This document shows, in pieces, positions 27,524-32,387 of a DNA stretch of 32,397 nt. A program made the translations under genes and the position numbers. Below the pieces are notes generated by a model. It was not told the origin of the DNA and did not search any database. It was given only the letters and a program-made list of their open reading frames with translations. The first letter of the stretch is position 1. Every line of letters begins with the position of its first letter. This DNA comes from Bryobacteraceae bacterium (GTDB lineage: Bacteria > Acidobacteriota > Terriglobia > Bryobacterales > Bryobacteraceae). The stretch is taken from positions 1-32,397 of the forward strand of contig JAIEPW010000068.1 of NCBI GenBank assembly GCA_019748195.1, written 5' to 3'.

Positions 27524-28759
27524 CTACCACAGCCACAGCAACACAAGTCCGGCGGCGAACACGACGAGGTAGGACGCGGCGACCCAGCGAAACAGGGACG
27601 CATGTCCGATCCAGGCCACCACCGCGGCCTTGAACACCAGGTTCGAGAGCACGGCCGTGATCACCAGCTTCCAGCCGGTGGTCGCGCTCAACGTGCCGCC
27701 GCTCACCAGGTTGGCAGTGGAGAGCGTGATCGCGTCCACGTCGGTGAGGCCGGAAATCGCGGCGACGAAGAACAGCGCGCCTTCGCCGAAGTAGTGCCGC
27801 GTGGCCGCCGCCGCGGCCAGAACGACGGCGTATCCCGCCGCGAACAGGAGCGCGGGCTTGAGCTCGGCCGGGTTTTCCGGCTTCGGAATCGCGGACTGCT
27901 TCATTTGCCGGAACCAGGCGATTCCGGCGAGCGCGAACAACAGTGCCGCCAGGATCAGCACCGGAATCAGCGCGGCGTGCAGCAACTCGCGCGAGATCAC
28001 CGCCATCTCCACCAGTACCCGTCCGAACACGACACCCGAAGCCAGCAGGATCACCATCAGCGCGGCTGGCAGCGTGGCAGGCTCCGCCTTGGAGGCGCGG
28101 GCGTAACTCACGGTGGTCGCGGTGCTCGAGACCAGGCCGCCCAGCAGCCCTCCCAGCACGGTCCCGCCGCGCTGCCCCAGCACCTGGAAAGCGATGTAAC
28201 CCGCCAGGCTGATGCCTACGATCAGTACCACCATCCACCAGATCTGGCGCGGATTCCAGACCTGAAACGGACCGTAGTTCTGATCGGGCAGCGCCGGCAG
28301 AATCACCAGCGAGATCAGTACGAAGCGCATGATCGCCTTCACGTCGTTGTCGCTTAGGCCGCGCGCGAAGCCGTGCATTTCGCCCTTGAACGCCAGCAGC
28401 GCGGCCAGCGCGCCGCCCAGCGCCACGGCTACGGAGCGGGGTCCGGTCATCACCAGCGCGCCGATTCCGTACATGGCGAACAGCGCGACCTCGGTGGTAA
28501 TGCCGGGGTCCCGATTCGCGCGGCCGCGCTCCAGCAGGTTCGCGGCGGCGATCACGGCGCCCAGCGCCAACAGCCCGGAGGGCAGCACCCATGCGCCGTG
28601 CGTGGTCGCCAGCATCGCCGACACCGATCCGAAGAGAGTCACGGCCGCGAAGGTCCGGAATCCGGCGAGTTGCGATGCCGCCCGCTCGCGCTCCAGGCCC
28701 ACCAGCAGGCCGAGCCCGAGCGCGATCGCGAGGTTGATGAAGACGTTGCCGCCGTTCAT
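27524..28759 (-). CDS. MgtC/SapB family membrane protein with DUF4010 domain
   Basis: This 411-residue inner-membrane protein has about eleven helices. The N-terminal MgtC domain (about 5-135) shows the family signature LGLGLLVGLERERAASQLAGFRT, and the remainder (about 170-405) is the DUF4010 membrane domain. MgtC proteins are linked to magnesium homeostasis and intracellular stress, but the function of the fused form is not established. I choose the ATG at 28757-28759; the frame stays open to 29071 only because it runs antisense through the ABC-F gene. A TAGGAT box (28773-28778, minus strand) and AAAGGCGG lie just upstream of the ATG. Confidence 0.85.
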   Translation of the reverse strand: MNGGNVFINLAIALGLGLLVGLERERAASQLAGFRTFAAVTLFGSVSAMLATTHGAWVLPSGLLALGAVIAAANLLERGRANRDPGITTEVALFAMYGIGALVMTGPRSVAVALGGALAALLAFKGEMHGFARGLSDNDVKAIMRFVLISLVILPALPDQNYGPFQVWNPRQIWWMVVLIVGISLAGYIAFQVLGQRGGTVLGGLLGGLVSSTATTVSYARASKAEPATLPAALMVILLASGVVFGRVLVEMAVISRELLHAALIPVLILAALLFALAGIAWFRQMKQSAIPKPENPAELKPALLFAAGYAVVLAAAAATRHYFGEGALFFVAAISGLTDVDAITLSTANLVSGGTLSATTGWKLVITAVLSNLVFKAAVVAWIGHASLFRWVAASYLVVFAAGLVLLWLW

Positions 28760-28861
28760 GCGAGCCGCCTTTATCCTAAGCCAAATGGCAGGGGGTGTGG
28801 CGAAGGTTCTGCCGCCACTCGCAAAGGTGACGCTGGTCCAAGGCGTGGATCGAATAACGAT

Positions 28862-28867
28862 TATCCT
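28862..28867 (+). promoter_or_regulatory. -10-like box (TATCCT) before the ABC-F gene
   Basis: TATCCT ends 10 nt before the GTG at 28878 and 4 nt before the GTG at 28872. The identical hexamer stands 11 nt before the GTG of the sugar transferase gene. This spacing is why I choose 28878 as the start. Confidence 0.4.
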
Positions 28868-28877
28868 GGTAGTGCCA

Positions 28878-30674
<1,797 letters not shown>

Positions 30675-30716
30675 CCTTGTCACGCCCGTCGGGCGGTTGC
30701 GTCTGTCTTCACAGGT

Positions 30717-30884
30717 ATGCCGGATTGGATTACAGCGATCGTGATACTGGCCGCGTATGTGGTGCTGATGCGCTGGATCCTGCCTCGCGCGGGCGTGCCG
30801 ACGTGAATGTCGGGCGGCTGCGACGCCGGTCGGCGTGGGGAAGAGGGTACGAGTCGTCGGGTCCAGAAGTCGAGGGCAGAGTGA
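30717..30884 (+). CDS. Candidate small membrane selenoprotein (TGA read as Sec); otherwise a 29-residue membrane peptide
   Basis: From the ATG at 30717 the frame encodes 29 residues: a short N-terminus (MPDW), one hydrophobic helix (about 4-22, ITAIVILAAYVVLMRW) and ILPRAGVPT, then TGA at 30804-30806. The same frame continues with Met-Ser-Gly-Gly-Cys and 20 hydrophilic residues to a second TGA at 30882-30884, for 55 residues in all. I recall small membrane proteins ending LP-x-LGVPT-C-MSG-x-C in other bacteria, where Cys occupies the TGA position; this is memory and unverified. A SECIS-like hairpin follows the TGA at the right distance. The residue would lie just outside the membrane in a U-x4-C pair, a possible redox site. 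The Shine-Dalgarno is weak (AGG close to the ATG). It could be co-transcribed with the ABC-F gene. Confidence 0.55.
30823..30836 (+). promoter_or_regulatory. Bacterial SECIS-like hairpin
   Basis: ACGCC (30823-30827) pairs perfectly with GGCGT (30832-30836) around the apical loop GGTC (30828-30831). There are 21 nt between the TGA and the loop. Known bacterial SECIS elements have a loop beginning with G, commonly GGUC(U) in E. coli fdhF, located about 16-37 nt past the UGA. Below the stem there is a G-G mismatch and one more C-G pair (30821/30838). The stem is short and the DNA GC-rich, so chance is possible. Confidence 0.5.
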
Positions 30885-30966
30885 CGGACGGTTGCCCCTC
30901 GGACGGTGCCTGCCGCTGCCTCCGGACGGTGCCTGCCTCGGACGGTGCCTGTTCCGCCTGCTCCGG
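30885..30966 (+). repeat. Cluster of REP-like repeats upstream of the RAYT gene
   Basis: The unit CGGACGGTGCCTG recurs here: a degenerate copy at 30885-30899 (GGTTGCC variant), then copies beginning at 30900, 30923 and 30939. Only the last (30939-30966) has the full form, continuing GTTCCGCCTGCTCCGG. The cluster begins directly after the second stop codon of the small ORF. Confidence 0.75.
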
Positions 30967-31164
30967 TCTGAAAATACCCCAGGGGTAAGTGGGGATACCC
31001 CCTTCGGGATATCACTGTTGATTCCACAGCTCTTAAGCTGGCCCTACTGGACTCCGACCCGGCCTTTTGCCGCAAAAATGGGATAAGGATTCCGCCCCTT
31101 ACCTTCCTCGTAACTCGTTGATTCCCTGTTAAACCACCCCCGCCTTCGGAGCAGCCGTAATTTT
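30967..31164. other. Non-coding stretch with two C/G-tract palindromes
   Basis: I see no convincing gene here. At 30975-30987 stands the perfect palindrome TACCCC-A-GGGGTA, followed at 30991-31002 by GGGG-ATA-CCCCC. Such paired tracts resemble operators of the CsoR/RcnR/CstR repressor family, or they could be part of the repeat-derived DNA. The remainder (31010-31164) is noticeably less GC-rich than the chromosome, with only a weak hairpin (CGGC-CTTTT-GCCG near 31062). Confidence 0.4.
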
Positions 31165-31188
31165 CCGGTGCCTGTTCCACCTGCTCCG
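31165..31188 (+). repeat. REP-like repeat, second upstream copy
   Basis: CCGGTGCCTGTTCC followed by ACCTGCTCCG is the same element as 30943-30966 with single differences. It ends 39 nt before the RAYT start codon. Confidence 0.75.
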
Positions 31189-31227
31189 CTGCTGAGAACA
31201 TACCGGAGTAAGAAGCACTATTCCTGT

Positions 31228-31920
31228 ATGCCCCGTCCCACTCGAATCGTAGTCCCCGGGCTCTGGCACCACGTCGTCCAGCGTGGCAATGAAGCCCGCC
31301 AGATCTTCTTCTCCGACGCCGATCGCCTCCTCTACCTCGACCTGGTTTCCCACTTCGCCGAGCGTTTTCAGACCCAGATCGTCGGCTTCTGCCTAATGAC
31401 CAATCACACGCACTGGATCGTGATCCCCCACCGCAGCGACTCGCTGAGCCGCACTTTCGGCAACGCACACGGCGATTACGCCCGTTATCGCAATCGTTTA
31501 CGCCGGGTAAAGGGGCACTTGTGGCAAGCCCGATTCTATTCCTGCGTGTGCGCCGATCTACACGCCTTAGCTGCACTGGCCTATGTGGAGAGAAACCCGG
31601 TACGGGCAGGCATTACGGATCGCGCTGAGGACTATGCCTGGTCATCGGCCGCGGCGCATTGCGGCTTAGGAGGTTGGGATAAGCTGGCTGGAGGCGATCT
31701 GAGCGGAAAAGGGTATAATCCAAACCGCTGGAAACGGCTGCTGGAGACCGGCAGCGCGCTGGAAGCGCTGGAGGCGCGGATCCGCGAGGCGACTCGCGAT
31801 ATGTCCGCTGCCGGTTCGGCTGAATTCATGGAAACAATGGAGTTCCTGACCGGCCGGCCGCTCCGCAAACCACCGCGCAGCCACACTTCGGCGACTGGCG
31901 TGGTTATGGCGACCGGCTGA
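31228..31920 (+). CDS. REP-associated tyrosine transposase (RAYT, Y1/IS200-like)
   Basis: This 230-residue protein belongs to the Y1 HUH endonuclease transposases of the RAYT branch, which nick single-stranded DNA at REP sequences. It begins MPRPTRIVVPGLWHHVVQRGN, typical of the group. The HUH motif is NHTHW (His60, His62) and the catalytic tyrosine is Tyr87 or Tyr84 in DYARYRNR. The RAYT-specific GHLWQARFYSC and YVERNPVRAG follow, with a C-terminal helical region. I use the ATG at 31228; a GTG 60 nt upstream is in frame but begins inside the REP repeat. All motifs are intact, so the gene may be functional. REP-like repeats flank it on both sides. Confidence 0.92.
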   Translation: MPRPTRIVVPGLWHHVVQRGNEARQIFFSDADRLLYLDLVSHFAERFQTQIVGFCLMTNHTHWIVIPHRSDSLSRTFGNAHGDYARYRNRLRRVKGHLWQARFYSCVCADLHALAALAYVERNPVRAGITDRAEDYAWSSAAAHCGLGGWDKLAGGDLSGKGYNPNRWKRLLETGSALEALEARIREATRDMSAAGSAEFMETMEFLTGRPLRKPPRSHTSATGVVMATG

Positions 31921-31923
31921 TCG

Positions 31924-31948
31924 CCGGAACACGGGGAACTGGCACCGA
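31924..31948 (-). repeat. REP-like repeat, first downstream copy (inverted)
   Basis: CCGGAACACGGGGAAC followed by TGGCACCGA is the reverse complement type of the upstream repeat (CGGTGCC-A/T-GTTCC). It begins 4 nt after the RAYT stop codon. Confidence 0.75.
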
Positions 31949-31965
31949 GAGGGGGAAGGCCGGTT

Positions 31966-31990
31966 CCGGAACAGGGGGAACTGGCACCGG
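31966..31990 (-). repeat. REP-like repeat, second downstream copy (inverted)
   Basis: CCGGAACAGGGGGAAC followed by TGGCACCGG differs from the first downstream copy at two or three positions. The two copies are 42 nt apart start to start. Confidence 0.75.
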
Positions 31991-32309: not shown

Positions 32310-32387
32310 TGGTCGGGCCGCCGGGATTTGAACCCGGGACCTCTTGCACCCCAAGCAAGCGCGCTAGCCAGGCTGCGCCACGGCCCG
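32310..32387 (-). tRNA. tRNA-Pro (anticodon GGG)
   Basis: On the minus strand the cloverleaf is complete. The acceptor stem is CGGGCCG pairing with CGGCCCG and discriminator A. The anticodon stem CTTGC/GCAAG encloses the loop TTGGGGT, giving anticodon GGG. The T-arm is CCGGG-TTCAAAT-CCCGG. The CCA end is encoded (32310-32312). It decodes CCC and CCU. It is the last feature in the window and could be an integration site for mobile DNA, as tRNA 3' ends often are. Confidence 0.95.

Follow-up and report, generated by a model that had tools for sequence, protein, structure and literature searches.

A probable membrane selenoprotein of about 55 residues with an in-frame UGA, and its relatives in samples of three phyla

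Gene and features at the locus

The window (the whole stretch of 32,397 nt analysed here) carries a small reading frame that opens at an ATG (30717), runs for 29 codons and meets a TGA at 30804-30806. Past this codon, the same frame continues as MSGGCDAGRRGEEGTSRRVQKSRAE up to a further TGA at 30882-30884. Both the 29-codon ORF stopped by TGA and the frame open to 30884 had been noted in a preliminary description of this DNA, and both are as described there. Since the frame is open to 30882-30884, readthrough would give a product of 55 residues with selenocysteine (Sec, U) as residue 30. No alternative in-frame ATG, GTG or TTG was found upstream, back to the stop of the preceding gene at 30672-30674.

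Table 1. Features of the locus in window coordinates
Feature	Position	Strand	Basis
Predicted selenoprotein ORF, 55 residues, MPDWITAIVILAAYVVLMRWILPRAGVPT-U-MSGGCDAGRRGEEGTSRRVQKSRAE	30717..30881	+	Stop TGA 30882-30884; homologues
UGA predicted to be read as selenocysteine, residue 30	30804..30806	+	Site codon across 179 loci
LPRAGVPT block (L22-T29), conserved, N-terminal to Sec	30780..30803	+	P/G/T kept in 178/178/177 of 179
Cys35, proposed redox partner of Sec (U-x4-C)	30819..30821	+	Equivalent Cys in 122/179
Predicted single transmembrane helix, ~residues 4-21	30726..30779	+	Family hydropathy and charge
bSECIS-type hairpin ACGCC-GGTC-GGCGT	30823..30836	+	-6.7 kcal/mol; covarying stem of relatives; likeness to selD
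ABC-F-type ATPase gene, upstream	28896..30674	+	Two ABC_tran stretches and ABC_tran_CTD (Pfam)

The product is predicted, from hydropathy alone, to be a single-pass membrane protein, as had been proposed earlier; the best 17-residue KD value is at least 1.6 in 168 of 179 family members. The C side of the helix is more positive than the N side in 158/179, and because the more basic side is expected inside (positive-inside rule), the topology is probably N-out/C-in with a cytoplasmic C-terminus.

The upstream gene for an ABC-F-type ATPase ends 42 nt ahead of the selenoprotein ATG and is possibly co-transcribed with it; it is not a conserved partner of the selenoprotein family. Its left coordinate in Table 1 is the start of the Pfam query rather than a start codon, the true start lying slightly upstream or elsewhere in the ORF 28329-30674. 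Downstream, the selenoprotein gene is followed by an IS200-like (Y1) transposase gene. This transposase-domain gene (Pfam Y1_Tnp, 31228-31917) is possibly REP-associated. By eye, short GC-rich repeats, GGTGCCTG...CTGCTCCG, flank it around 30945-30965 and 31170-31190, with an inverted-looking copy near 31930-31990. A tRNA-Pro gene (anticodon ggg, ARAGORN) lies on the minus strand at 32310-32387, close to the end of the window.

Homologues and the codon at the site

A translated search of 101 related genomes located the gene in 30. Profile A1 (32 rows) matched 94 of the 396 genomes sampled from the window's phylum. In the phylum that includes a Planctomycetaceae MAG it matched 27 of 294, two of these matches proving unrelated, and in that of a Myxococcales MAG 34 of 195, of which 30 loci were read. 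The gene is thus a member of a family present in samples of three phyla, which goes beyond the single case of the preliminary description. The resulting set of 179 loci leaves out eight repeats (L052, L149, L053, L147, L148, L173, L213 and L214), one phylum match with neither U nor Cys at the site (L140), one locus with no match (L150) and two that are part of a larger membrane protein (L195 and L196).

Across the 179 loci, the site codon was TGA in 173, TGT in 4 and TGC in 2; TAA, TAG and other sense codons were never observed there. Where their final stop was read, these ORFs end in TGA (92), TAG (50) or TAA (35). TGA and Cys forms numbered 120 and 3 in Acidobacteriota, 23 and 3 in the Planctomycetaceae phylum, and 30 and 0 in the Myxococcales phylum. 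The Cys-codon homologues that had been anticipated at the TGA site therefore exist, in 6 of 179 loci. Homologues all ending before the TGA, named beforehand as a finding that would speak against a selenoprotein, were not what we observed, as the residues just past it are conserved.

The product has a median length of ~56 residues, with a tail of median 27. The U-x4-C pair of the preliminary description holds for 122/179 members, including the window copy, which have Cys at U+5; the rest of the 179 lack this spacing, though 166/179 have a Cys somewhere in the tail and 13/179 have none. In 613 sequence pairs, differences at codon positions 1/2/3 were 0.39/0.29/0.46 from U+1 to +6, 0.39/0.48/0.50 from U+7 to +12 and 0.69/0.62/0.71 from U+13 to +19. 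These patterns show clear protein-type constraint over the six codons that follow the UGA and weak constraint further on. In the window copy, every family-invariant residue of A1 is intact.

Some variation in the tail was also observed. Many tails of Myxococcales-phylum members (L200-L226) are rich in proline and arginine, e.g., UGMPPRPRDGA...GC, and in many of these members the tail Cys lies at or near the C-terminus, being at U+5 in 9/30. In L133, U is shifted by one residue towards the N-terminus (GLGUG), which looks like the loss of a single residue with Sec retained.

The downstream hairpin and the selenocysteine machinery

The hairpin reported earlier is present as stated, its loop lying 21 nt beyond the TGA; it consists of ACGCC (30823-30827), GGTC (30828-30831) and GGCGT (30832-30836). 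The preliminary description proposed that its GGTC loop is identical to the one recognised by SelB in E. coli fdhF. The bSECIS model requires a loop 16-37 nt after the UGA, a G in the first two loop positions and a minimum free energy of -7.5 kcal/mol or lower, the geometry and energy limit being those given in section 5 of PMC13188914. The geometry of the window hairpin fits this model, and its energy is -6.7 kcal/mol against the limit of -7.5 kcal/mol. With 5 bp, it ranks 137th in strength among 173 TGA members. The minimum-energy fold of 30804-30860 pairs other bases, with a z-score of -0.64. By itself, the window hairpin is within chance, and the above-chance case comes from comparison with homologues. 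An identical scan of the selD UGA in the same genome identified the hairpin GTCCAAA-GGT-TTTGGAC, with its loop at 20 nt and an energy of -5.9 kcal/mol. The two hairpins are alike in loop start, spacing (21 vs 20 nt) and strength, and both fall short of -7.5 kcal/mol.

Among the 173 TGA members, 126 have a hairpin of -7.5 kcal/mol or lower after the TGA, compared with a mean of 16.2 and a maximum of 26 in 100 runs of codon shuffling. Final TGAs of family ORFs, used as comparison codons, reach the same limit in 10/91, and Cys forms in 1/6 (p = 0.008). By group, such hairpins were present in 84/120 Acidobacteriota members, 29/30 of the Myxococcales phylum and 13/23 of the Planctomycetaceae phylum. 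Of the 154 members whose hairpin reaches -5 kcal/mol or lower, 148 have it 16-24 nt from the UGA.

Covariation was scanned in 77 gapless sequences sharing U-x4-C-x4-R, for column pairs more than 70 percent canonical. Columns 17-33, 18-32, 19-31 and 20-30 covary as one nested stem with G-C/C-G/A-U exchanges; 19-31 ranked first, 18-32 second, and 17-33 and 20-30 fourth and fifth. The non-nested pair 22-31 was third (z 7.5), and its high score shows the background due to relatedness. With 115 gapless sequences whose register was mixed, RNAalifold returned no structure.

The source genome (5.83 Mb, 154 contigs, 99.67 percent complete) encodes a tRNA-Sec (72.8 bits, above cut-off; tRNA-SeC with anticodon tca according to ARAGORN), selB (361 bits), selA (485 bits) and selD (369 bits). 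A genome without selA, selB or tRNA-Sec had been put forward as evidence against the proposal, and all of these, with selD, were found. The selD gene itself has one in-frame TGA in the context AAG-U-ASK, which fits UxxK, the motif listed for SelD selenoproteins in Table 1 of PMC13188914. UGA is thus very probably decoded as Sec in at least one other place in the source genome.

The form of the gene was compared with the presence of SelB. Within the 101 related genomes, SelB was above cut-off in 27/27 genomes with the TGA form versus 0/3 with the Cys form (Fisher's test, p = 2.5e-4), the latter being three genomes of which one, G016, is 62 percent complete; G663, G677 and G734, Cys-form genomes from the phylum of L048, fall outside this comparison. 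In the three Cys-form genomes compared, the best tRNA-Sec matches were tRNA-Ser or tRNA-Leu. In the phylum sample of 396 genomes, selB at E <= 1e-62 was present in 88/94 genomes with a profile match versus 167/302 without one (p = 3e-13). The six matched genomes that lack selB at this threshold comprise one Cys form, three with tRNA-Sec, whose assemblies have about 280 to 420 contigs, and two with neither. In these last two, G339 and G470 (TGA forms L070 and L127), neither selB at that threshold nor a tRNA-Sec was found; their assemblies comprise about 950 and 390 contigs and are 90 and 97 percent complete, respectively. They may reflect either assembly gaps or real exceptions in which the gene was left after loss of the machinery. 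For the genomes behind L047-L051, four of five had selB above cut-off and the fifth had tRNA-Sec. The Cys form L021, from a genome without SelB, has TGC where its relatives L029 and L038 have TGA, with similar flanks. Its hairpin is still strong (-12.6 kcal/mol), as expected of a recent Sec-to-Cys change.

Taken on sequence evidence, the TGA inside this tiny membrane-protein gene almost certainly encodes selenocysteine. The best explanation, which we regard as very likely, is a single-pass membrane selenoprotein of ~55 residues, the UGA at 30804-30806 being decoded via SelB, tRNA-Sec and the downstream hairpin. Gene family, strict UGA/Cys exchange, machinery and a conserved SECIS-type hairpin are the parts of this reading that the sequences support.

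The family could be genuine and the window copy nevertheless be decaying, or poorly decoded through a shortened hairpin. The 5-bp stem and its rank of 137/173, a minimum-energy fold that favours other pairs and the absence of sulfur-type neighbours from the window are consistent with this view. However, the residues of A1 that are invariant in the family are all intact in the window, and its hairpin equals or exceeds that of selD in strength (-6.7 vs -5.9 kcal/mol), with similar loop start and spacing; we consider decay improbable. A plain stop, with a 29-residue membrane peptide and a likeness past the TGA arising by chance, is less credible again. It would agree with the chance-level score of the window hairpin (z -0.64) and with the scarcity of protein-type constraint past codon U+6. 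Against it, TAA or TAG occupies 0/179 sites versus 85/177 final stops of the same ORFs, Cys recurs at U+5 in 122/179, six Cys-codon homologues read straight through, and the SECIS-type hairpin is conserved. Re-initiation at the ATG that directly abuts the window TGA, giving a second tiny peptide (MSGGC...), has the least to recommend it, as 77/173 TGA members have a residue other than Met after U (Ala, Leu, Gly, Arg and others) and the Cys forms join both parts in one frame. Three observations led us to reject both plain stop and re-initiation: which codon occupies the site, which residue comes next, and the association with the Sec machinery.

Known families, neighbouring genes and possible function

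The family was compared with several libraries. NCBIfam release 20.0 contained no family for four proteins (E <= 1) or for 32 members (E <= 0.1), Pfam returned only scattered single-member matches (E 0.04 to 1.2) that resemble chance, and no relative was found in PDB at E <= 1. Rfam gave no match at E <= 1 across 30600-31000 of the window, and the plasmid collection gave no match. A 2026 review catalogues 119 prokaryotic selenoprotein families or subfamilies in its Table 1 (PMC13188914); no row of that table has the motif P-x-x-G-x-x-T-U-x4-C, and the string Acidobacteri- does not occur in the main text of the review. The deep-Sep paper reports one Acidobacteriota genome tested, with three known and no new selenoprotein genes. 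The family was likewise not found in the searched text of PMC12013277, PMC9312934, PMC1794560 and PMC5029168 or in the other openly licensed literature searched. With no NCBIfam or PDB match, chance-level Pfam matches and a motif absent from the table of the review, these proteins appear to form a new family of SelB/SECIS selenoproteins.

The family shares several traits with bacterial SECIS/SelB selenoproteins: a UGA within the frame, followed by a hairpin whose loop has a G near its start; exchange of Sec for Cys among homologues; occurrence together with selB and tRNA-Sec; and a Cys close to Sec that is probably its redox partner. Unlike the catalogued SelB selenoproteins, its product is small, a single helix with a short tail. 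The eukaryotic SELENOK and SELENOS are small, cross the membrane once and carry Sec close to a cytoplasmic C-terminus. The resemblance may be read as an analogy of layout only; Sec position, SECIS type and context differ from those of the family. The Tso/SAO operons, as treated in PMC13188914, encode Sec proteins, some of them small and some tied to membrane, sulfur or metal chemistry; in contrast to these, no NCBIfam model matches the family, so none of theirs in that library does.

A distant likeness to YgaP-like membrane segments was also considered. PF11127 (YgaP-like_TM) did not match any of 32 members at E <= 10. Aligning A1 with 37 neighbouring YgaP-TM stretches (hhalign) gave a probability of 70 over 25 columns, a weak alignment in which the end of the second YgaP-TM helix (ILRKLGV-like) lies against the family's VLPRLGV-T-U. 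Unlike YgaP-TM, the family has one helix instead of two, and the WCP motif is absent.

Neighbouring genes were identified by clustering ORFs around family genes and by Pfam searches on ten examples, with thioredoxin recognised by sequence. The recurrent neighbours are MBL + rhodanese (persulfide-dioxygenase-like), rhodanese + YgaP-like TM, lone YgaP-like TM, DUF302, TauE, ArsR-type regulators, RND pumps and P-II proteins. One or more of rhodanese, MBL, DUF302, YgaP-TM and TauE was present in 39/64 family loci, each spanning at most about 6 kb, versus 1/39 six-kb control regions displaced along the same contigs (p = 2.6e-10); since the markers were picked from the family loci, enrichment is measured here against a control that is not blind. 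In the same comparison of 64 loci with 39 controls, TauE alone was borderline (p = 0.05), and no significant enrichment was seen for the TolC, universal-stress or OsmC markers. The Cys forms L179 and L183 have an MBL-rhodanese gene directly upstream. In the window's lineage, the selenoprotein gene usually lies apart from sulfur-type partners: none of these markers was found within the 32-kb window, and in its taxonomic family a sulfur-type neighbour occurred in 4/20 wider loci, one of them via a weak match.

One lineage has the gene order YgaP-TM, selenopeptide, thioredoxin (L100, L101, L103, L104, L107, L110 and L116). In those seven loci, the thioredoxin start lies 58-61 nt after the beginning of the UGA, within the selenopeptide tail, and this position suggests that translation of the two genes is coupled in that lineage. 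On a wider count, a thioredoxin start ~58-67 nt past the UGA overlaps the selenopeptide 3' end in 8/9 loci (L143 too, with L081 adjacent). A recurrent cluster of RND pump, YgaP-like TM, P-II-like protein, ArsR-type regulator, selenopeptide and DUF302 was also seen, with varying order and members, at L115, L132, L134, L142, L144, L145 and L146.

In the mechanism we propose, SelB and tRNA-Sec would decode the UGA at 30804-30806 under the direction of the hairpin just 3' of it, placing Sec near the membrane, probably at the cytoplasmic face, with four residues between Sec and Cys. Sec and the nearby Cys would form a reversible redox pair, a relay at the membrane that accepts sulfane sulfur (persulfide) or electrons and passes them on. 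Its partners may be rhodanese, persulfide-dioxygenase-like and YgaP-like membrane proteins, with thioredoxin re-reducing the pair. According to the abstract of PMC4730233, YgaP is a sulfurtransferase integral to the membrane, and its catalytic rhodanese domain lies in the cytosol. We consider such a Sec/Cys redox relay, with sulfurtransferase partners and thioredoxin, about evenly balanced between right and wrong.

The main functional rival replaces sulfane sulfur with a metal or metalloid, which Sec would bind or shuttle for an RND efflux system encoded nearby. RND (18/64), ArsR-type (15/64) and P-II-like (13/64) genes near the gene, each 0/39 in controls, agree with it. However, rhodanese, MBL-rhodanese, YgaP-TM and DUF302 neighbours occur both with and without RND genes, and we regard this alternative as rather unlikely. 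Returning to the sulfane-sulfur reading, its broadest version is tentative: the family may be the selenium-dependent redox subunit of a membrane sulfane-sulfur module spread over at least three phyla. The proposed module would comprise YgaP-TM, DUF302, rhodanese/persulfide dioxygenase and thioredoxin, joined in some lineages by an RND pump and a P-II-like regulator.

The gene was matched in about a quarter of the sampled Acidobacteriota genomes (94/396, one later dropped) and in samples of two more phyla. If the selenoprotein reading is right, gene finders have probably cut it at residue 29 or left it uncalled, because its second half lies behind the UGA. The selenoproteome would gain a family without a relative in the libraries searched, at the small end of the size range, and selenium would be tied to sulfide/persulfide chemistry at the membrane. 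Sec and Cys versions in related genomes with and without SelB would offer a natural experiment. Should the sulfane-sulfur module also prove true, it would help to explain the retention of the Sec system by many soil bacteria.
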